A DNA stretch of 64,000 bases from NCBI GenBank assembly GCA_017464135.1, contig JAFUEB010000004.1, positions 271,049 through 335,048 of the forward strand. Reading direction: 5' to 3'. Shown piece by piece: positions 22,163 through 45,645 of this stretch. Each line of letters opens with the position of its first letter. Position 1 is the stretch's first letter. Source of the DNA: Candidatus Saccharimonadota bacterium (GTDB taxonomy: Bacteria > Patescibacteriota > Saccharimonadia > Saccharimonadales > Saccharimonadaceae). The notes under the pieces are model-generated. The model made no database searches and was not told the origin of the DNA. It saw only the letters and a list, made by a program, of their open reading frames with translations. The translations under genes were made by a program, and so were the position numbers.

Positions 22163-25150
22163 TTATTCACCGGAACTTTGGTCGATTTGTAAGGTTGCTA
22201 CTGCAGTGTAGCCAACGTTATCGGAGATCATGATTTTGAGTGACTTCTCGGTACCATTCAAGGTGTAGCCGTTAATGACGCCATTTGAAGCCACGGAGAT
22301 TGCATTGTTTTCAACGCCATCCACATAAAGCGTGTAACCGACGATCGCGTTCGAACCGCGACGAATAGTGGCAATGATTTGGTTGCCGGACGTCGAGAGT
22401 GAGACGGAAGGCGGTGTGTAATCGCAGGTGTCACTGACTTCATTATTGTATGGTTCTGGAACGTTGTAGGATTCCTTCTTCGTGATTGGATCCATAACCT
22501 TGTTCACTTCGATACCAATCTTGAAGGCTTCTTGCGTACAAGATGAAGCAAGTTTGTAATTGTAACGGTTAAAGACTAACGTTTCCTTAGTGACACCCGA
22601 GTTCTTACTGGGGTCGTACCAGCTCGGCCAAATATCGTTCTGACCATTGACGGTCAAACGCTTGATGCCGGCTGGCTGTGCGATGGCTTGATTGGCAGCA
22701 TATTTACCTTCTGGAATGTAGACCTCGTTGTGAGCTCTATCCATGTAGCGTTGGACGGCAAATCTAACTGGATCACCGGAACCGACCGCGAAGCCGGAAC
22801 CATCGGCGTTACCGTTCCAAACAAAGGTCGAAAGGGCAGGTGAATAGCTTTCAATGAGGGAGTCCTTCACGGTAGTGGAGCTGGCGGTCGTAGTAGTACC
22901 AGTCTTCGTCGCAGTCCAAACATTTGGAATGAGGAAGCCGGTAGTACTGTTGGCCCAGCGGGCGCCACGGTCGTTTAAGATGCTCGAAACCATGTAGGCG
23001 ACTTGTTCATCAACTACGCGAGTAGCTGGAGAATCAGTCCATTTCTCGATGGTGTCACCGGTCGAATTCTTCACCTCTAGCACGTAGGAAAGTGGTTTGT
23101 AGGAACCACCACGAGCAAGGGAAGCGTAAGCGTTCGCGTGCTCGACCATGTGGACACCACAACCAGAGCCGATGGCGATAGAGAGACCATAGCCACTACG
23201 GTCCTTACAATAGGCTTCGTCGCCAAGGGCATGGGCAACTTTCAAAGAATTGTCGATACCATTAATATATAGGGCTTTTACAGCGGCGATGTTCAAAGAG
23301 TGACCGAGCGAGAAGCGAATCGAAACGTTACCATAGAAGGTGTTCGTTGCGTTCGTCATACAGTTTCTAACGGCGCCGTTACAATAGAGTTTATCGATGT
23401 TTTCATCTTTTAGAATCGTACCTGGGCCATAGTTGATACCATCGCGCTGCATGAAGAGCGGGGCATAGTCGAGAATCGGCTTAATAGATGAACCTGGCTC
23501 GATTAGAGAGTCCGTTGTCACATTCAACTCACCGAAGGCCTTGTTATTGAAGTTGGCGGAGCCGACCATCGCAACGACTTGCGACGTTTCGACATCGATT
23601 GAAACGAGCGCCATGTTGTTGGTGCGGTTCGTAACGGCAGCTTTTTCCATGCCGATGTTTACAGCATCTTGAGCAATGTCTTGGAGACGCCAGTCGAGGG
23701 TGGTAATAATCGTCCAACCACCGGCACGCATCGTAGAGATGCCATATTTCTCTTCAAGTTGTTTCTTTACTTCAAGCACGAAGTGTGGCGCTTTCATATC
23801 CGCATATTGACTAGATTCCGGCTTAATCGTAGCAAGAATGTCAACGGCCTTGGCTTCTTCGGCTTCTTCGGTCGTAATGTAACCAAGTTCGGCCATTACA
23901 TCGAGCGTGTGTTGTTGGCGCCAAATCAATTGATCGTGACCATATTCATTATATGGGTTAAACACGGCCGGGTTGTTTGGAATCGCAGCGAGAAGCGCAC
24001 ATTCAGCCAGAGTCAAATCTTTCACAGACTTGCCGAAGTAAGTACGGGCAGCAGACTCAACACCGTTACGGCGACCACCGTATGGTGATTGGTTGAGATA
24101 CATCGTTAAGATTTCGTCCTTTGAATACATGCGCTCAAGCTCAATGGCAAGGATAAGCTCTTTGATCTTACGCGAAAGACCACCACGGTTGGAGCTCGCG
24201 GCTTCGTCGGCAAAGTAAACCTGCTTAATCAGCTGCTGGGTGAGAGTAGAACCACCTTGCACCTGCTTACCAGTAACCGTCATAAAGAAGGCACGAGTAA
24301 GGCCGACTAGGTCAACGCCGATATGGTTGTAGAAGTTCTTATCCTCGATGGCAACTGTCGCTTGCTTCATGATTTTTGGAATATCTTCACTATCAACCAC
24401 GAGGCGATAGTTTTCGCTACCAGTATCTTTCCAGAGCAATACGCCGTTACGATCGAGATAAGTATTGACCGTTTCAGAAATCGACATTTCATCAAGGCGA
24501 ATTTCATCGAGGTCTTTCTTATAGTAAAGGAATAGACCAGCAATGAAGATAACTAAGAGTAGGAAACAAGTACCAATGAATTTGAGAATGGCTTTTTGGC
24601 CACGCCACGAGAACCACCAACGGAAAACACGCTTCGGGTGTAATCTCGCGAAGAATCTCTTAATTGGTTCCTTAGGTAATGATGCAAGATCCTCTGCCTT
24701 ACGGCGAGCTTCAGCTTCCTTTTTAGCTTTGCGGCGTTCGCGCCACCTAGCAAAAAAGCCCAAACTATTCTTTGGTTTTGACTGCTTCTGCTTTTTAGAT
24801 TTCTTTGCTTTCGCCATCTCCTCGGACACCTTATCTTCTTTAGTTTCTTCCTGAACCTTGGCTTCCTGGGTTTTGGTCTCAGGGGCTTTAACTTCAGGGG
24901 TTTTTGCTACGGCTTTTACGACCGGCTCCTTCGCAACCGGTTTGACAGTCGGCTTCACGTCAGAAACCTTTACTGTAGCTTTTCCTTCAGGCACTTTCGT
25001 GACTTCTTCGTCATTTAAATCATTAATACGAATCTTGACTTTATTCGTATTATCAGCTGTTTTTCTGACGGTTTCGTCTGGCCTTTTTTGATTTGGTGTT
25101 CTAGGCTTGCTAGACGGCAAAATAACGTCCACTCTTTTCTTTTTAGCCAT
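22163..25150 (-). CDS. pbpA/mrcA-like: Class A penicillin-binding protein (transglycosylase/transpeptidase)
   Basis: 995 residues from ATG 25150; an ATG 18 nt further up lies inside the promoter. A long Lys/Pro/Val cytosolic tail (1-180) precedes one transmembrane helix (about 187-212). The GT51 domain has AIEDKNFYNHIGVDLVG and QGGSTLTQQLIKQ. The transpeptidase has SSIKP (SxxK), SLN and KTGTT. C-terminal beta-rich domains end the protein. It polymerises and cross-links peptidoglycan outside the membrane. Minus-strand TACAAT at 25157-25162 ends 6 nt before the ATG: leaderless, and divergent from murJ, the lipid II flippase, a functionally matched pair. Confidence 0.95.
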   Translation of the reverse strand: MAKKKRVDVILPSSKPRTPNQKRPDETVRKTADNTNKVKIRINDLNDEEVTKVPEGKATVKVSDVKPTVKPVAKEPVVKAVAKTPEVKAPETKTQEAKVQEETKEDKVSEEMAKAKKSKKQKQSKPKNSLGFFARWRERRKAKKEAEARRKAEDLASLPKEPIKRFFARLHPKRVFRWWFSWRGQKAILKFIGTCFLLLVIFIAGLFLYYKKDLDEIRLDEMSISETVNTYLDRNGVLLWKDTGSENYRLVVDSEDIPKIMKQATVAIEDKNFYNHIGVDLVGLTRAFFMTVTGKQVQGGSTLTQQLIKQVYFADEAASSNRGGLSRKIKELILAIELERMYSKDEILTMYLNQSPYGGRRNGVESAARTYFGKSVKDLTLAECALLAAIPNNPAVFNPYNEYGHDQLIWRQQHTLDVMAELGYITTEEAEEAKAVDILATIKPESSQYADMKAPHFVLEVKKQLEEKYGISTMRAGGWTIITTLDWRLQDIAQDAVNIGMEKAAVTNRTNNMALVSIDVETSQVVAMVGSANFNNKAFGELNVTTDSLIEPGSSIKPILDYAPLFMQRDGINYGPGTILKDENIDKLYCNGAVRNCMTNATNTFYGNVSIRFSLGHSLNIAAVKALYINGIDNSLKVAHALGDEAYCKDRSGYGLSIAIGSGCGVHMVEHANAYASLARGGSYKPLSYVLEVKNSTGDTIEKWTDSPATRVVDEQVAYMVSSILNDRGARWANSTTGFLIPNVWTATKTGTTTTASSTTVKDSLIESYSPALSTFVWNGNADGSGFAVGSGDPVRFAVQRYMDRAHNEVYIPEGKYAANQAIAQPAGIKRLTVNGQNDIWPSWYDPSKNSGVTKETLVFNRYNYKLASSCTQEAFKIGIEVNKVMDPITKKESYNVPEPYNNEVSDTCDYTPPSVSLSTSGNQIIATIRRGSNAIVGYTLYVDGVENNAISVASNGVINGYTLNGTEKSLKIMISDNVGYTAVATLQIDQSSGE

Positions 25151-25156
25151 ATATTT

Positions 25157-25176
25157 ATTGTAGCACATGTTATAAT
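25157..25176. promoter_or_regulatory. Divergent leaderless promoter pair, PBP / murJ
   Basis: Minus -10 TACAAT (25157-25162) and plus -10 TATAAT (25171-25176, with TGT before it). The two start codons are only 33 nt apart. Each expected -35 (25180-25185 and 25148-25153) overlaps the other gene's start codon, and neither looks like TTGACA. Confidence 0.75.
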
Positions 25177-39303: not shown

Positions 39304-40491
39304 TCAAGTCTTACGTGCTTTTGCCATTTGCTGAGAAACGACGGCTTCGAGGTTGCCATCGGCGTTCCGATGGACATAAACGGCGTAGTTTTGCACGCCG
39401 ACGAAGCCGACCACGATTTCATCCGAAACATTCGAACGAAGCACGGTGTTGTTGCGAGCTCCCATCGAGAAGTCGTCCGTGAGGATTTCTTCGTGCACGA
39501 GGTAATCCTCGGCGAGGAGCTTGATCTTCTGGCTATCGGAGAGTTTCGCGACCACCACAATTGGGCGCTCATTGATGCTGGTAAAGAGTACCGCATCATC
39601 TTCGGCACCGCTGACGCGGAGTTCAAAACCTTCGATAGCGTAAAGCAGACTGCGATGACAATCCGTCCGCTCGAAAGTGCCCCCGCCAATCGTGGCGTTT
39701 TTGGTATTGGGGCTTTTCCGGCTGATATCGTAGAGCGACTTCAGAGTCCCGCAGTCATGCCACTCGAAGTAGCCGACGGCGACCTGTAAATCACCTAGCA
39801 TTTCCATCATTTTATTGGTAGAGATGCCACGATACCGCTTGTTTTCAAAGATACTGTTTACGACATCAGCGCGCCAGACATTGATGCCGGTGTTGCAGGC
39901 AGAATTGCCTTGGCGCATGATTTCGTCCGCCTTTTTCTTGTCCGGTTTCTCGACGAAGCCGGTAACAGGGAAACAAGCGGAGTTGGTCTCTTCGTAAATC
40001 GCGTGACCACAGCCCATCGCGGTCACGATGTCGTTGACTTTAACGCCAACAATCACCGAATTACCGTTTTTGGCACCAGCCACGGCCGATTCAATCGCCG
40101 CCTTAAACTCAAAGTCCGGGACCAGATACTGATCGGCCGGAGTATTGATAATAATGGCGGCGGGGTCGAGCTTGTAGATTTCGCTAGTTGCTTTTATCAT
40201 GGAGCCGGCGTAACCAAGTTGCGGGCTCAGCTGCAGGATATTCTGGGACAGAATGCCTCTTGGCAGGCACTGCTTTTTTGCGAGCTCGGTTTGGCTGTCC
40301 GAAGTGGTAATTACGACAATATTAGTGGGTTTGACTCCGAGAAAGGTGAAGTTGTCCACCACCGCTTGAATGAAGGTATTACGCTCATCCAATTGGCAGA
40401 ACTGCTTGGGGCAGTCCGGGTGACTAATTGGGAAGAGGCGAGTGCCTTTTCCGCCAGCAATAATCGCTGTCCAGAGATGTTCAGTTTCCAT
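39304..40491 (-). CDS. manC: Mannose-1-phosphate guanylyltransferase
   Basis: 395 residues. Nucleotidyltransferase signature AIIAGGKGTRLFPISHPDCPKQF (about 9-31), NTPADQYL metal site, FVEKPDKKKADE, and NTGINVWRADVV. Makes GDP-mannose from GTP and mannose-1-P for glycans or glycolipids such as those the GT4 gene at 54215 could use. The isomerase half of bifunctional ManC is only partly represented; the C-terminal 120 residues form a cupin-like fold without clear isomerase histidines, so transferase only is likely. AGGAGGT precedes ATG 40491. Confidence 0.9.
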   Translation of the reverse strand: METEHLWTAIIAGGKGTRLFPISHPDCPKQFCQLDERNTFIQAVVDNFTFLGVKPTNIVVITTSDSQTELAKKQCLPRGILSQNILQLSPQLGYAGSMIKATSEIYKLDPAAIIINTPADQYLVPDFEFKAAIESAVAGAKNGNSVIVGVKVNDIVTAMGCGHAIYEETNSACFPVTGFVEKPDKKKADEIMRQGNSACNTGINVWRADVVNSIFENKRYRGISTNKMMEMLGDLQVAVGYFEWHDCGTLKSLYDISRKSPNTKNATIGGGTFERTDCHRSLLYAIEGFELRVSGAEDDAVLFTSINERPIVVVAKLSDSQKIKLLAEDYLVHEEILTDDFSMGARNNTVLRSNVSDEIVVGFVGVQNYAVYVHRNADGNLEAVVSQQMAKARKT

Positions 40492-40524: not shown

Positions 40525-40581
40525 AATATACCAAAAACGGTATATGTTTGCTATTATAGCATAGATTGACTAAAATGTCAA
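40525..40581 (-). promoter_or_regulatory. Consensus manC promoter with overlapping palindrome
   Basis: TTGACA (40576-40581), 17-nt spacer, TGCTATAAT (TATAAT 40553-40558) on the minus strand. About 10 nt past the start lies ATATACC-N6-GGTATAT (40527-40546), an inverted repeat placed like an operator or an early leader hairpin. Confidence 0.75.
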
Positions 40582-40633
40582 TGCTTATCAGCCGAAATCG
40601 GCATTTTTATGCGTTCTATGGTATAATTGTTGC

Positions 40634-41905
40634 ATGACTGCTAGCAAGTTAAAAAAGCGTCTATATTTCTCTGTTGCGAAATATTTTCGGTTTTTTGCTA
40701 ATCGAGCTTTTAAGCGCTGGAACCCACGCGTAATTGCTGTCACTGGTTCGGCAGGTAAAACTACCATGCTAAACCTCTTGGAGCACGAAATGGGCAAACA
40801 CGCGCACTTCTCCCATGATGCCAACTCGGCATTCGGGATTTCTTTTGATGTGTTGGGACTAAAAGGGGTTCGCGGGTCGAAAATCCGCTGGATCTGGCTT
40901 TTAATTGCGGCGCCACTGCGTGGGCTGTTTTATCGCCACAAAGAGCCATTTTATGTGGTCGAGATTGATGGCGAGCGCCCACATGAAGCGGAATTTCTCG
41001 CCGAATGGTTGAAGCCAGAAGTGACAATCTGGGTATCGATTGGGCTTTCGCACGCGATTCAGTTTGAAAAAGTCGTCGCAGAAGGGAAATTTGGCTCGCT
41101 TTCGGAGGCAATCACGGCGGAATTTGCCAATCTGCCGCTCAATACTTCAAAACGGGTTTATATTGATGCTGACTCGAAACTGATGGTAGAAGCAACCGTG
41201 GGCATTAAGGCGAAGGTGATTCCAATCAAGAAGTCTAACCTCAAGAAATACGTGGTTTACCCAGATTCGACCGACTTTACCTACGGCGACACGACTTTCC
41301 ATTTTAACCATCCGGAGCCGAAGGATATTTCCTTTAATCTGTTTGTTTTGCAGGATTTGATGAAATATTTGAAGTCACCATTTAATCCGGACTTCTCAGA
41401 ACTAAAGGTGGCACCTGGTCGCAGCTCGTACTTTGAAGGTAAGAAGGGTATCCAGATTGTAGACAGCAGTTACAACGCCCATATGATTTCGATGACTTCG
41501 ATTCTTGATATGGCAAAGAGAATGCACGCGGAACGCAAATGGCTGATTATTGGCGATATCGTGGACCAGGGGTCAATTGAGGGCGAAGAGCACGAAAAAC
41601 TCGCAAAATTGATTGCCGATGTGAAGCCAGACTTAGTAATTCTAGTGGGGCACCGCACGAAGAAATATACGGCACCAAAGCTTAAGGAACTTGGCGTTTC
41701 GGCAGTTGCGACGACCGATCCGAGGAAGGCACTTGCCTACATCGAGAAGCATATTACTGGCAAGGAAACGCTGATTTTTAAGGGTAGCCACTATCTTGAA
41801 TGGATTATTGAGAAATTATTAGCCAATCCGAAGGACGCGGCAAAACTCTGTCGCAGAGAAAAAGCTGCTGTCCAAAGGCGTAAAAGTTGGGGGTTAGACT
41901 CATGA
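40634..41905 (+). CDS. MurF-like Mur ligase without the N-terminal UDP-sugar domain
   Basis: 423 residues. The P-loop GSAGKTT is at 38-44, whereas in MurF it follows an N-domain of about 100 residues that binds UDP-MurNAc-peptide; that domain is missing. The middle keeps VEIDGERPHEAEFL and VSIGLSHAIQFE, and the C-domain keeps VDSSYNAHMISM and the GDIVDQGSIEGEEHEKLA loop of MurF. It should activate a carboxylate with ATP and couple an amine, but on a different acceptor or with a separate acceptor subunit. TGGTATAAT (40622-40627) ends 6 nt before ATG: leaderless head of a five-gene overlapping operon. Confidence 0.85.
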   Translation: MTASKLKKRLYFSVAKYFRFFANRAFKRWNPRVIAVTGSAGKTTMLNLLEHEMGKHAHFSHDANSAFGISFDVLGLKGVRGSKIRWIWLLIAAPLRGLFYRHKEPFYVVEIDGERPHEAEFLAEWLKPEVTIWVSIGLSHAIQFEKVVAEGKFGSLSEAITAEFANLPLNTSKRVYIDADSKLMVEATVGIKAKVIPIKKSNLKKYVVYPDSTDFTYGDTTFHFNHPEPKDISFNLFVLQDLMKYLKSPFNPDFSELKVAPGRSSYFEGKKGIQIVDSSYNAHMISMTSILDMAKRMHAERKWLIIGDIVDQGSIEGEEHEKLAKLIADVKPDLVILVGHRTKKYTAPKLKELGVSAVATTDPRKALAYIEKHITGKETLIFKGSHYLEWIIEKLLANPKDAAKLCRREKAAVQRRKSWGLDS

Positions 41906-42588
41906 GCAAGCCAGAATTATACATCATCCACGGCTGGACGTACACGGTAGAGCCTTGGAAAAGAACTCTGGAACTACTCAAAGAGGCTGGTATTAAGGTG
42001 ACGATGCTCCATGTACCGGGTCTCACGGAGCCGAGCGATAAGGTATTTACGATTGAAGACTACGTGAAATGGGCTGACCAAATGATTCCGAATGGCGCAA
42101 TCGCGCTCGGACACTCGAATGGTGGCAGAATTCTCTTAAATCTCTCAATCAAGAAACCAGGGAAGCTAAAGGATCTGATTTTGCTCGATTCGGCCGGAGT
42201 GTTTGAAATGACCAAGAAGAAGAAAGCCGTAGCGGCACTCGCGAAGATTGGCAAGCCGTTTAAGAAGATTAAATTCATCGATAAGGCATTCCACCGCGCG
42301 ACTGGGACGACCGATTATTCGAAAGCGCCGGAGAATATGAAGAAGACGCTCGCGAACATGCTCGAATCCGACAAAAATCTGAAATTTGAGGACGTGAAGG
42401 TGAAAACCTACATTTTATGGGGTCAAAAAGACACTGTCACGCCACCGCGCCACGCTGAGATAATGCACGCTGAAATTGCTGATTCGGAGCTTAAAACATA
42501 CGCTAATTGGACGCACGCGCCGTATATTTCGCATCCGGACGATTTAGCCCGGGCGTTAATTGTATTAATGTCGAGGTTAGAACAGTGA
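41902..42588 (+). CDS. Alpha/beta hydrolase
   Basis: 228 residues from ATG 41902, overlapping the upstream stop as ATGA. YIIHGWTYTVEPWKRTLELL oxyanion region, GHSNGG nucleophile elbow (Ser about 74), LLDSAGVF, then Asp in LWGQKDTVTPP and His in ANWTHAPY. No signal peptide, so it works inside the cell. The family spans esterases, thioesterases and amidases; substrate unknown. Its place between a Mur-type ligase and an aminotransferase suggests a role in building or trimming an activated amino compound, by inference. Confidence 0.88.
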   Translation: MSKPELYIIHGWTYTVEPWKRTLELLKEAGIKVTMLHVPGLTEPSDKVFTIEDYVKWADQMIPNGAIALGHSNGGRILLNLSIKKPGKLKDLILLDSAGVFEMTKKKKAVAALAKIGKPFKKIKFIDKAFHRATGTTDYSKAPENMKKTLANMLESDKNLKFEDVKVKTYILWGQKDTVTPPRHAEIMHAEIADSELKTYANWTHAPYISHPDDLARALIVLMSRLEQ

Positions 42589-43658
42589 AACATCATTATT
42601 TGGGTTTAGCGGCGAGGAAAAAGGGGGCATGGAGGCAACTGTTCGTTCACGGTTCAAAATACGATTTAAATCATTTAAAGATTTATTTGCAAGAACGCTA
42701 TCAGGGTGAAACTATGCTGACCAAGAACGGGCGCTCGGCGCTCGCACTCGCACTTAAAGGCTACTTTGAGAAGGGCGACAAAGTCATTGTAAATGGCTTT
42801 ACTTGCTATGCTGTATATGAGGCGGTAAAGGCCGCGGGGCTTACACCAGTGTTTGCCGACATTACGAAGGAAGATTTGAATTTCTCGGTGGAAACGATTA
42901 GCAAGGTTGCCGAGGGCGCAAAGGGAATTATTATTCAAAATACGCTCGGGAATCCCGTGGATATCGAGGCGATTGAAGCTTTTGCGAAAGAGAAGAATCT
43001 CTTAATTGTCGAGGATTTGGCGCACTGTGTCGGGATTAATTATAGGGACGGGCGCGAAGCCGGTACAGTGGGAATTGCGACCGCTTTGTCATTTGGTAAA
43101 GATAAATCGATTGATACGATTACCGGTGGTGCCGTGATATTTAGGGCGCCAAGAAAGCACGAAATTAAAGCGCCGGCAAAAGCTCCGGCTAGATCCGATA
43201 ATTTCCGGGCGAGATTCTATCCGATGGCGGGCGCGATGTGTCGTGGGCTCTCTTATGTACACCTCGGTGGCGCGATGATGAAATTGTTCTTGAAGCTTCA
43301 CATGGTGGAGAAGTCGGCCGATAATAAGTTAGATCTCTCGGTTAAACCAGCGAAATTTGAAGCGAAACTCGCGCTCGAGCAGATTAAAACCTTGAAAAAC
43401 GAGAAGCCGCTTCGCGAATTTTATCTCGTGAGAAGTCGCGACGAAGTCTTAAAGAAACTGAAGAAGGCCGGATACTATTTCGACGGATTTTGGTACGAGA
43501 AGCCGATTTCGCCGGCGAGGTATTATAATAAAGTGCATTTTCCAGAGAGCGACTGCCCGGTGGCGGTGATGGTCGCCAGCGCGATTATTAACTTTCCAAC
43601 CCATTATGATAAAAAGGAGCTAGAAAGAGCTAAAGAAATTGTAAAGGAGTATTTATGA
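42585..43658 (+). CDS. DegT/DnrJ/EryC1-type PLP aminotransferase
   Basis: 357 residues from GTG 42585 (GTGA overlap with the hydrolase stop). PLP fold type I: VNGFTCYAVYEAVKAAG, IIIQNTLGNPVD, Asp144 in VEDLAHCVG and the Schiff-base Lys174 in SFGKDKSIDTITGGAV. These enzymes aminate keto-sugars or related ketones. The GEGG after the lysine is changed to TGG. FemX follows with ATGA overlap. The product may be the amine used by the neighbouring ligases; inference. Confidence 0.87.
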   Translation: MKHHYLGLAARKKGAWRQLFVHGSKYDLNHLKIYLQERYQGETMLTKNGRSALALALKGYFEKGDKVIVNGFTCYAVYEAVKAAGLTPVFADITKEDLNFSVETISKVAEGAKGIIIQNTLGNPVDIEAIEAFAKEKNLLIVEDLAHCVGINYRDGREAGTVGIATALSFGKDKSIDTITGGAVIFRAPRKHEIKAPAKAPARSDNFRARFYPMAGAMCRGLSYVHLGGAMMKLFLKLHMVEKSADNKLDLSVKPAKFEAKLALEQIKTLKNEKPLREFYLVRSRDEVLKKLKKAGYYFDGFWYEKPISPARYYNKVHFPESDCPVAVMVASAIINFPTHYDKKELERAKEIVKEYL

Positions 43659-44629
43659 ACTTTGACGAAGTCGTAAAAAAATACCCAGAAGCCAACTTTT
43701 TGCAATCGCTGGAGTATGGTAAGATGAATGAACTCCTTCACGATAAGGTGATTGTTTCTGATTTTAATGGACTAGGGCACGCGCTTATGATTGTCCGAAA
43801 TGCAAAGCGTGGACGCTACCTCGAAATCCCGTGTGGGCCACTCACGGATTGGACAAACAAGAAGACGATTAGGGCAGTATTTGACGAGATTACTAGGATT
43901 GGTAAGGCCGAAAAATGCGTATTTGTGCGCGTGCGTCCGCAACTAAATGGCAACGAAAAAAATCTAAAACTCCTCGAAACACTAGGGCTTAAGAAATCTC
44001 CAATGCATCTTGCGGCTGAACATACAGTGATGCTAGATCTTAGAAAATCCGAGGATGAACTACTCGCTGATATGCGTCGCCAAACTCGTTATGAGGTGCG
44101 CCGTGCTGATAAGCTCGGCATAAAGGTCGAAAAAGATGATTCGGAGGCATTATTTAAAGAATTCCATAAAGTGCAGGCCGAAACGGCAAAGCGCCAAGGA
44201 TTTGTGCCACCAAATCTCAATACTTTACTCGCTGAAAGAGAAGCGTTTAAGGGCAACATCGTGATTTACGTGGCAAAAACCGAAGAAGGTAAGCCGATCG
44301 CCTATGGCATGTTTATTAAGGGTGGCAAGGAAGGTGACTACTACGAAGCGGCTTCGACTGATCTAAACCGCAAGCTTCCAGGCGCATACGCTTTACTCTG
44401 GCAGGCTGCGAAAGATTTGAAGGCGGAAGGCTACGAACGGTTTAACCTCTGGGGAATTGCTCCGCCAAACCAGCCGAATCACCGCTACGCCGGCGTTACA
44501 ACCTTCAAGACCGGCTTTGGTGGCGAAGTGATTGAGTACGTGCCGGCACACGACTTAGTCTTATCGAAAATAGGATACTTAAAAGATTATATGGTGGAAG
44601 CAATTCGCAAGAAAAAGAGGCATTTATGA
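43655..44629 (+). CDS. FemX/FemAB-type aminoacyltransferase, copy 1
   Basis: 324 residues, twin GNAT domains of the FemABX family: NFLQSLEYGKMN at the start, YLEIPCGPLTDW, VRVRPQL, HTVMLDLRKSEDELLADMRRQTRYEVRRADKLGI and YYEAASTDLNRKLPGAYALLWQAAKDLK. Fem proteins move amino acids from aminoacyl-tRNA to the peptidoglycan stem lysine. The coiled-coil arm of S. aureus FemA is absent, as in Weissella FemX. ATGA overlaps on both sides. Confidence 0.92.
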   Translation: MNFDEVVKKYPEANFLQSLEYGKMNELLHDKVIVSDFNGLGHALMIVRNAKRGRYLEIPCGPLTDWTNKKTIRAVFDEITRIGKAEKCVFVRVRPQLNGNEKNLKLLETLGLKKSPMHLAAEHTVMLDLRKSEDELLADMRRQTRYEVRRADKLGIKVEKDDSEALFKEFHKVQAETAKRQGFVPPNLNTLLAEREAFKGNIVIYVAKTEEGKPIAYGMFIKGGKEGDYYEAASTDLNRKLPGAYALLWQAAKDLKAEGYERFNLWGIAPPNQPNHRYAGVTTFKTGFGGEVIEYVPAHDLVLSKIGYLKDYMVEAIRKKKRHL

Positions 44630-45645
44630 TTAGGGTAGAAACAGCAGTAAATCGAGAAATTTGGGACGAATTTATTAAATCCCACGAAGAGTCGAATTTC
44701 TTACAGTCCTTCGATTTTTACGAATTCCATCTTGCGCGTGGGAAAAAGGTGGTTCGGCGTCTATTTTATGTAGATGACGAGATCAAGGCGGCTTATGCTG
44801 GCGTCGTGGAAACCGCGAAGCGCGGGACTTACATGGCGATTGCCGGTGGTCCGATTATGGATTTCAAGAATAAAACACTGGTGAAGGCGGTATTTGACGA
44901 TATTAAAACTGAGGGGAAAAACCTCGGTTGTGCGTTTGTCCGCGTCCGTCCACAACTACCACTTTCCGATAAGTCTTTGAAGCTCATGAAGGATTTAAGC
45001 TTGAAAAAAGCGCCAATGTATCTCTCAGTAGAGTATGCTGGCGTACTCGATTTAAGAAAGAGCGAAGAAGAGATGCTCGCGAATGCATCACAAGGCTTTA
45101 GAAGGAAACTCCGCAAGGCCGAAAAAGCCGGAATCACAGTGGAAACTTCCACCGACCCAAAGATTGTGAAGACTTTTTACGAACTCGAAGTGAAGCACGC
45201 AAAACGTCAGGGTTTTGTGGCATTTTCGGAAAGTTTCCTCACGAAGCAATTCGAAGCTTTTTCTAAAAATGACGAAGTCATTATGTATACTGCAAAGAAA
45301 GATGGCGAGATTTTAGCCCAGAATTTCATGATTTTTTACGGACCAGAAGCGAGCTACCATTACGGCGTATCGTCGGATCTTGGTACGAAGTATTCCGCAG
45401 CGCCGCTCCTACACGTGGAAGCGATGCGCGAAGCTAGAAGGCGCGGCATGATTCGCTACAATTTGTGGGGAATTGTGGGGCTCGAAGAAAAATCCCATCG
45501 TTTTTACGGCGTATCAGAGTTTAAGCGTTCATTCGGTTGCGATGAGCTAAAATACACCCCGGCGCACGACCTAGTTTTGAAGCCAGCCAAATACCAACTT
45601 ACGAAACTCGTCGAGTCGACCAGGAAACGCATTCGCCACGTCTAA
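44626..45645 (+). CDS. FemX/FemAB-type aminoacyltransferase, copy 2
   Basis: 339 residues, paralogue of the preceding gene with the same landmarks (NFLQSFDFYEFH, GGPIMDF, VRVRPQLPLSDKSLKLMKDL, GVLDLRKSEEEMLANASQGFRRKLRKAEKAGI, YHYGVSSDLGTKYSAAPLLHVEAM, CDELKYTPAHDLVLKP tail). Two tandem copies suggest two successive additions, as FemA and FemB do. Last gene of the operon; the next promoter lies at about 45700. Confidence 0.92.
   Translation: MIRVETAVNREIWDEFIKSHEESNFLQSFDFYEFHLARGKKVVRRLFYVDDEIKAAYAGVVETAKRGTYMAIAGGPIMDFKNKTLVKAVFDDIKTEGKNLGCAFVRVRPQLPLSDKSLKLMKDLSLKKAPMYLSVEYAGVLDLRKSEEEMLANASQGFRRKLRKAEKAGITVETSTDPKIVKTFYELEVKHAKRQGFVAFSESFLTKQFEAFSKNDEVIMYTAKKDGEILAQNFMIFYGPEASYHYGVSSDLGTKYSAAPLLHVEAMREARRRGMIRYNLWGIVGLEEKSHRFYGVSEFKRSFGCDELKYTPAHDLVLKPAKYQLTKLVESTRKRIRHV

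Follow-up and report, generated by a model that had tools for sequence, protein, structure and literature searches.

A conserved five-gene operon in Saccharibacteria that probably stands in for the MurF and Ddl step of peptidoglycan precursor synthesis

Ddl accompanies MurF in most walled bacteria, and its product D-Ala-D-Ala is targeted by vancomycin and mimicked by beta-lactams. Alternative stem termini are known from the van gene clusters, and the staphylococcal FemABX enzymes act on lipid II. Mur-type ligases without the uridine-binding N-terminal domain have also been described, such as MurT/GatD, which amidates lipid I and lipid II and not UDP-linked precursors (PMC6085368). Here, we compare with these systems an operon of five plus-strand open reading frames, M-H-P-F1-F2, located in a 64,000-nucleotide stretch of DNA (the window) from Saccharibacteria, which are tiny parasitic bacteria. 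No account of this operon was found in the open-access papers searched on Saccharibacteria or Patescibacteria dealing with MurF, FemX or D-Ala-D-Ala, which agrees with an earlier note on the window that knew of no described pathway with this gene set.

The operon begins with M (40634-41905), a MurF-type ligase of 423 amino acids (aa) that contains a Mur_ligase_C domain, followed by the alpha/beta hydrolase H (41902-42588, 228 aa, ATG start), the DegT-type PLP enzyme P (42585-43658, 357 aa, GTG start) and two FemAB-family transferases of FemX size, F1 (43655-44629, 324 aa) and F2 (44626-45645, 339 aa). Each gene overlaps the next by 4 nt, as the earlier note had stated, and the gene order is intact in 21 of 21 same-genus loci inspected, with the identity of M falling to approximately 55%; such conservation is far beyond chance. 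Cassettes outside the genus vary, P and F1 being absent from some of them, and M, H and F2 are the most constant members. In the genus, manC-like and galU-like genes are found close to the operon. A putative promoter-like site on the plus strand (40598..40627; TCGGCA, 18-nt spacer, extended -10 TATAAT) matches 10 of 12 consensus positions. Its -35 element is weak, and its -10 box (40622-40627) stops 6 nt short of the M start codon (ATG), a leaderless layout. Because the region contains 12 comparable sites and shuffled sequence a mean of 8.1 (sd 2.8), the shared leaderless promoter proposed previously is plausible but not proven.

By sequence and fold, M is nearest to MurF. The best match of its AlphaFold2 model (pLDDT 91.3) is Thermotoga MurF (3zl8; Z 31.8, rmsd 2.7, 344 aligned), with which it shares the central and C-terminal fold, and M also carries an intact P-loop (TGSAGKTT, residues 37-44) and the conserved His and GR motifs of MurF. 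The model aligns to 3zl8 only from residue 62 of the 3zl8 chain onward, and in many M orthologues just 42-50 residues separate the upstream stop from the P-loop. The N-terminal UDP-MurNAc-peptide-binding domain is thus truly absent, as had been proposed, and the possibility that it is concealed within M was rejected on the basis of the model and the orthologue lengths. In one genome (L193), a 140-aa membrane protein resembling the N-terminal part of the transmembrane MurF (TM-MurF) is encoded upstream of M. Because the MurE proteins of this order and its other soluble MurF clade likewise lack the domain, its loss is not a distinguishing trait of M. The earlier note had implied a contrast between M and a "real" MurF, and this was not supported: the near-complete genomes of the genus have no separate MurF, their Mur ligases comprising only MurC, MurD, MurE, a 248-aa fragment and M, which is the sole MurF homologue there. 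In addition, M differs from other MurF proteins in that Ser278 (codon 41465-41467; 26 of 26 sequences) replaces an Asp that clades F and T, like E. coli MurF, have at the matching position. The conserved Asp has an ATP-ribose binding role in Mpl (PMC3060825), and M departs from this superfamily trait. The score of M against TIGR01143 (MurF) is 98.9 bits, below the curated cut-off of 288.6, which is reached in 0 of 60 genomes of this order. M is a member of a third, monophyletic MurF clade of the order.

The domain assignments made previously for the four remaining genes were all borne out. H possesses a GHSNGG elbow and catalytic-type residues Ser72-Asp177-His205 that are invariant in 13 sequences, and it is homologous from end to end to the hydrolase of a Ddl-linked hydrolase-(TM-MurF)-Ddl module. 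P has the fold and the PLP lysine of the DegT/DnrJ/EryC1/StrS aminotransferases (Lys174, codon 43104-43106, invariant in 24 sequences), and its best fold matches, with Z values of 29-30, include nucleotide-sugar aminotransferases such as GDP-perosamine synthase (Z 29.6); however, it falls below every curated DegT subfamily cut-off, stands in a cell-wall precursor context and is missing from some cassettes. F1 and F2 exceed the gathering score of the FemAB Pfam domain (125 and 133 bits versus 24) and are as long as Weissella FemX, but score below the cut-off of NCBIfam FemX (32 and 67 bits versus 500) and, unlike described FemX/FemABX proteins, occur in combination with a ligase of MurF type and a PLP enzyme. 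Their profile matches comprise FemX, FemA and a lipid II:glycine glycyltransferase. They may carry out aminoacyl-tRNA-dependent transfer to a peptidoglycan precursor.

The distribution of the cassette was examined in 148 genomes of the order, namely 147 chosen at a completeness of at least 90% and the window's own genome (72%). Cassette-type M and Ddl were found to be largely mutually exclusive: Ddl is absent from 20 of the 22 genomes with M (20 without and 2 with Ddl) and from only 10 of the 126 genomes without M (10 and 116, respectively; Fisher p 2e-15, with ancestry ignored). In one genome (G061), M and a true Ddl occur together, and LeuS directly adjoins M. MurF is intact in the four inspected among the ten genomes that lack both M and Ddl; the existence of these ten indicates that loss of Ddl, or failure to recover it in assemblies, does not depend on the cassette. 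Weak PF07478 matches in the genus were considered as a hidden Ddl and rejected: the match that recurs lies in an ATP-grasp protein of 302 aa, read as RimK-like, and since similar matches are present in Ddl-containing genomes (G049, G059 and G038), they do not represent a Ddl substitute specific to genomes with M.

On comparison of loci, the cassette was found where relatives hold Ddl or MurF-Ddl, with P, F1 and F2 occupying the position where Ddl stood. Exchanges are visible within genera: in g32, G122, G146 and G177 contain M and lack Ddl, whereas G142 and G148 contain Ddl and lack M, and in g38 the same exchange is seen between G159 and G166. In G159, an SPFH gene and an amylase gene enclose the cassette, and in G166 their orthologues (61% and 73% identical) are found on either side of RarA-Ddl. 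In families f31 and f37, M-H-P-F2 abuts LeuS, a site at which other families have a MurF-like gene, often together with Ddl. An older MurF survives beside M in two genomes, with its catalytic motifs eroded in both: EHM has become EYI and DDTYN has become DDTYT in G159, and, as read from the translation of the LeuS-locus gene in G092, GKTS has become GKAS and DDTYNSSP has become DNTSRSTA. The corresponding motifs are intact in the four inspected genomes that have neither M nor Ddl.

Together, these observations suggest that the operon is probably a replacement module for the MurF and Ddl step, by which the stem peptide would be finished without Ddl. The earlier note had placed the target in the peptidoglycan bridge or another surface polymer; this is narrowed by the exclusion of Ddl, the exchanges at a shared locus and the relic MurF genes, which suggest that MurF and Ddl are replaced by the block and, accordingly, that the stem peptide is the likely site of action. 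MurC, MurD and MurE would build the tripeptide, and M would activate its terminal carboxylate with ATP and couple it to an amine of non-Ddl origin. H, a companion that also occurs in Ddl-linked MurF modules, would process or edit the substrate of M. F2 (with F1 in this family) may draw on aminoacyl-tRNA, and P on PLP chemistry, for making or extending the amine used in place of D-Ala-D-Ala; alternatively, F1, F2 and P might supply the new stem with bridge residues. Given their absence from some cassettes, P and F1 are not essential to the step. We would put forward only tentatively the more specific scheme, in which the terminal unit is made, in place of Ddl, by a FemX-type tRNA-dependent transferase (together with the PLP enzyme in most lineages), the dedicated MurF clade M installs this unit, which is not Ddl-made D-Ala-D-Ala, and the patchily distributed block has spread between families, possibly horizontally. 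By analogy, and with no claim of membership, the module recalls the van clusters in that it would alter a stem terminus normally made by Ddl; it differs from them in having no Ddl-type ATP-grasp ligase.

The product should remain a substrate for penicillin-binding proteins (D,D-transpeptidases), which are retained with their KTG and SxN motifs in genomes with M. L,D-transpeptidases are mostly absent, and L,D-transpeptidation was rejected as the cause of Ddl loss, YkuD being missing from most genomes with M. PBP2 was also examined for changes that might indicate an altered donor, and the alignment contains no column separating genomes with M from those with Ddl, which suits an unaltered D-Ala-D-Ala-like donor. 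This result favors the main rival explanation, that M is a divergent MurF adding D-Ala-D-Ala from the host or medium, so that scavenging makes Ddl dispensable and F1, F2, P and H serve cross-bridges or decorations. The ten genomes without both M and Ddl, four of them with MurF seen to be intact, are consistent with it, as is alanine racemase, which is uninformative as a discriminator, being rare across the whole order (16 of 148 genomes), and suggests that D-Ala itself is probably imported. In addition, TM7x was reported to depend on its host for UDP-GlcNAc (PMC10768705). However, scavenging leaves unexplained both the decay of the resident MurF beside M and the position of the cassette exactly at the Ddl or MurF-Ddl site, and we regard it as a rather doubtful account.

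It is considerably less likely that M acts on a lipid-linked precursor like MurT and that the operon equips lipid II with a side chain that is amidated or bridged instead of changing the stem terminus. Such a role would fit the missing N-domain that M shares with MurT/GatD and the action of staphylococcal FemABX enzymes on lipid II, but no GatD partner is encoded among the five genes, M is closer to MurF than to MurT in sequence and fold, MurE of the same genomes has lost its N-domain as well, so that this loss is no pointer to lipid II, and the MurF step would stay unfilled in the genus. A non-peptidoglycan amino-sugar or surface polymer, for which P would transaminate a nucleotide sugar and M with F1/F2 would attach amino acids, is highly improbable: the fold of P and the nearby manC-like and galU-like genes speak for it, yet the substrate cannot be read from a fold, P is absent from several cassettes, manC and galU do not adjoin the cassettes of other lineages, and cassette position and Ddl exclusion point to the stem peptide.

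If the module does replace both MurF and Ddl while D,D-transpeptidases are kept, either the precursor of these parasitic bacteria would end differently or the host would feed a step of their wall synthesis. Either outcome would bear on the host dependence of Saccharibacteria and is accessible to muropeptide analysis.

The five-gene operon occupies 40634-45645 on the forward strand, each neighboring pair sharing 4 nt as the earlier note had described, and encodes a Mur ligase (M), an alpha/beta hydrolase (H), a DegT-type PLP enzyme (P) and two FemAB-family proteins of FemX size (F1 and F2). As to the leaderless promoter claimed for it, a -10 box ending 6 nt 5′ of the M ATG suits, but does not prove, a leaderless transcript. 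On the reverse strand, a perfect sigma-70 consensus promoter (TTGACA-17-TATAAT, 40553-40581) serves a divergent manC-like gene (39304-40491). The window's genome (0.67 Mb) is 72% complete; absence claims are based on near-complete relatives. Among named genomes, the closest to it are Candidatus Saccharibacteria MAGs, some from ruminant gut and some from other sources.

The order M-H-P-F1-F2 is constant across the 21 same-genus loci inspected. P is present twice in four of these genomes (L051, L067, L068 and L069), the first copy bearing a long charged C-terminal tail where it could be read. Beyond the genus, cassettes are patchily distributed and sometimes reduced, to M-H-F1-F2 in genus g32, M-H-P-F2 in families f9, f31 and f37, and M-H-F2 in family f20. 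M, H and F2 make up the core; F1 is confined to the window's family among inspected loci, except for a weak match within a long ORF of G078. The M of G152 (L196:2247-3671) is longer, at 474 aa, and its match to the window's M falls in two pieces. Genus g32 also has weakly MurF-like proteins of 315-318 aa (L187:8069-9025, L188:6905-7855, L189:6646-7593), flanked by hdeD-like and ParA-like genes.

A profile of 26 M proteins matched only MurF among solved structures. The AlphaFold2 model of M (pLDDT 91.3) aligned to Thermotoga MurF only from MurF residue 62 onward (Z 31.8, rmsd 2.7, 344 aligned residues), so the UDP-MurNAc-peptide-binding domain is, as the earlier note held, missing rather than disguised. 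The contrast drawn there with real MurF is not supported, because MurE and the soluble MurF-like proteins linked to Ddl (D-Ala-D-Ala ligase) in this order, the Saccharimonadales, also have few residues ahead of the P-loop, and the loss is thus not peculiar to M. MurC of the order has at least 125 residues there, and MurD sequences possess an N-terminal region. In the genus and its relatives, MurE leaves no room for a UDP-binding N-domain (L100:931-2199, L103:949-2199, L104:946-2358); MurC retains it. As Mur ligases, near-complete genus genomes yielded only MurC, MurD, MurE, a 248-aa MurE-like fragment and M, with no separate MurF; M is their sole MurF homologue and is the MurF of cassette-bearing lineages. 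The TIGR01143 cut-off was reached by none of the examined genomes of the order. A Mur-ligase central-domain protein in the genus (248-271 aa; P-loop GTTGKV; L100:219-965, L109:1372-2118, L115:1327-2139) lacks a C-terminal domain and adjoins MurE convergently where both were read (L100 and L104).

The co-occurrence of M and Ddl was tallied over 148 Saccharimonadales genomes, of which 147 had been selected for completeness of at least 90% and the other, 72% complete, is the window's own. M passed its threshold (E ≤ 1e-30) in 22 of them, and 118 had Ddl (PF07478, E ≤ 1e-12). Ddl was absent from 20 genomes with M and present in two, and it was absent from 10 without M and present in 116 (Fisher p = 2e-15, a value without ancestry correction). 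Of the two overlaps, G061 has a true Ddl, and LeuS directly adjoins its M at the place expected for H; the Ddl match of G169 is weak (62 bits).

A maximum-likelihood tree of 44 proteins split cleanly into M, the cassette proteins; F, soluble proteins often next to LeuS and a Ddl of ~300 aa; and T, membrane-anchored proteins within a hydrolase-T-Ddl module. D277-S278 occurs in 26/26 M proteins at the place of DD in F, T and E. coli MurF, and to our knowledge the second Asp is invariant throughout the Mur family (MurD D317). In a motif-based alignment, it lines up with an Asp described as ATP-ribose-binding in Mpl (PMC3060825). Upstream of the cassette M in G169, a 140-aa membrane protein (L193:9697-10119) resembles the N-terminal part of the membrane-anchored MurF, arranged as though split off from it. 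H matches the hydrolase of the hydrolase-T-Ddl module over its full length (hhalign probability 100) and therefore goes with MurF modules in general. The novel element where Ddl would otherwise stand is F2, in most cases accompanied by P and, in the window's family, also by F1. Lys174 of P is invariant, in agreement with the earlier assignment, and its fold is of the nucleotide-sugar aminotransferase type (best Z 29.6), which does not indicate the substrate since many top matches tie.

The cassette would finish the stem peptide with no need of Ddl. In the preferred mechanism, F2, together with P and F1 in cassettes that have them, would provide or extend an amine, M would join this amine to UDP-MurNAc-tripeptide, and H would edit or process. 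The strongest rival is that D-Ala-D-Ala is scavenged from the host and still added by M, which is favored by the genomes that have neither M nor Ddl and by unchanged penicillin-binding proteins, but sits poorly with replacement in place and with decay of the older MurF. The swap of Ddl for the cassette is also seen within genera g32 and g38; in the latter, G166 reads amylase-RarA-Ddl-SPFH and G159 reads SPFH-[M-H-P-F1-F2]-378 aa-amylase, the two SPFH proteins sharing 61% identity and the two amylases 73%. The cassette adjoins LeuS in f31 and f37, a position held in other families by a MurF-like gene that is often accompanied by Ddl. The F gene persists in two genomes with M, eroded in both: in G159 the conserved His is gone (EHM to EYI), as is the conserved Asn (DDTYN to DDTYT), and G092, at the LeuS locus, shows GKTS to GKAS and DDTYNSSP to DNTSRSTA. 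Four genomes that have neither M nor Ddl (G104, G156, G179 and G041) keep an intact F gene. This overall pattern argues that the MurF step was taken over by M.

Alanine racemase is rare (16/148 genomes), and D-Ala is thus probably imported in most genomes of the order. The window genome's sole PF00905 transpeptidase match (G000:C2:293913-294659) lies in a 1001-aa reverse-strand ORF (22163-25168), probably a class A penicillin-binding protein. Among the open-access papers searched, one survey suggested from van-like genes that the D-Ala termini of CPR bacteria may be altered (PMC8651080), a proposal that differs from the cassette reading. D,D-transpeptidases (TRANSPEPTIDASES) were kept in 60/60 genomes of a first set, only 10 of which had L,D-transpeptidases; PBP2 retained KTG and SxN in genomes with M, and no PBP2 column separating these from genomes with Ddl was found. 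Therefore, the proposed new stem end must remain usable by ordinary penicillin-binding proteins.
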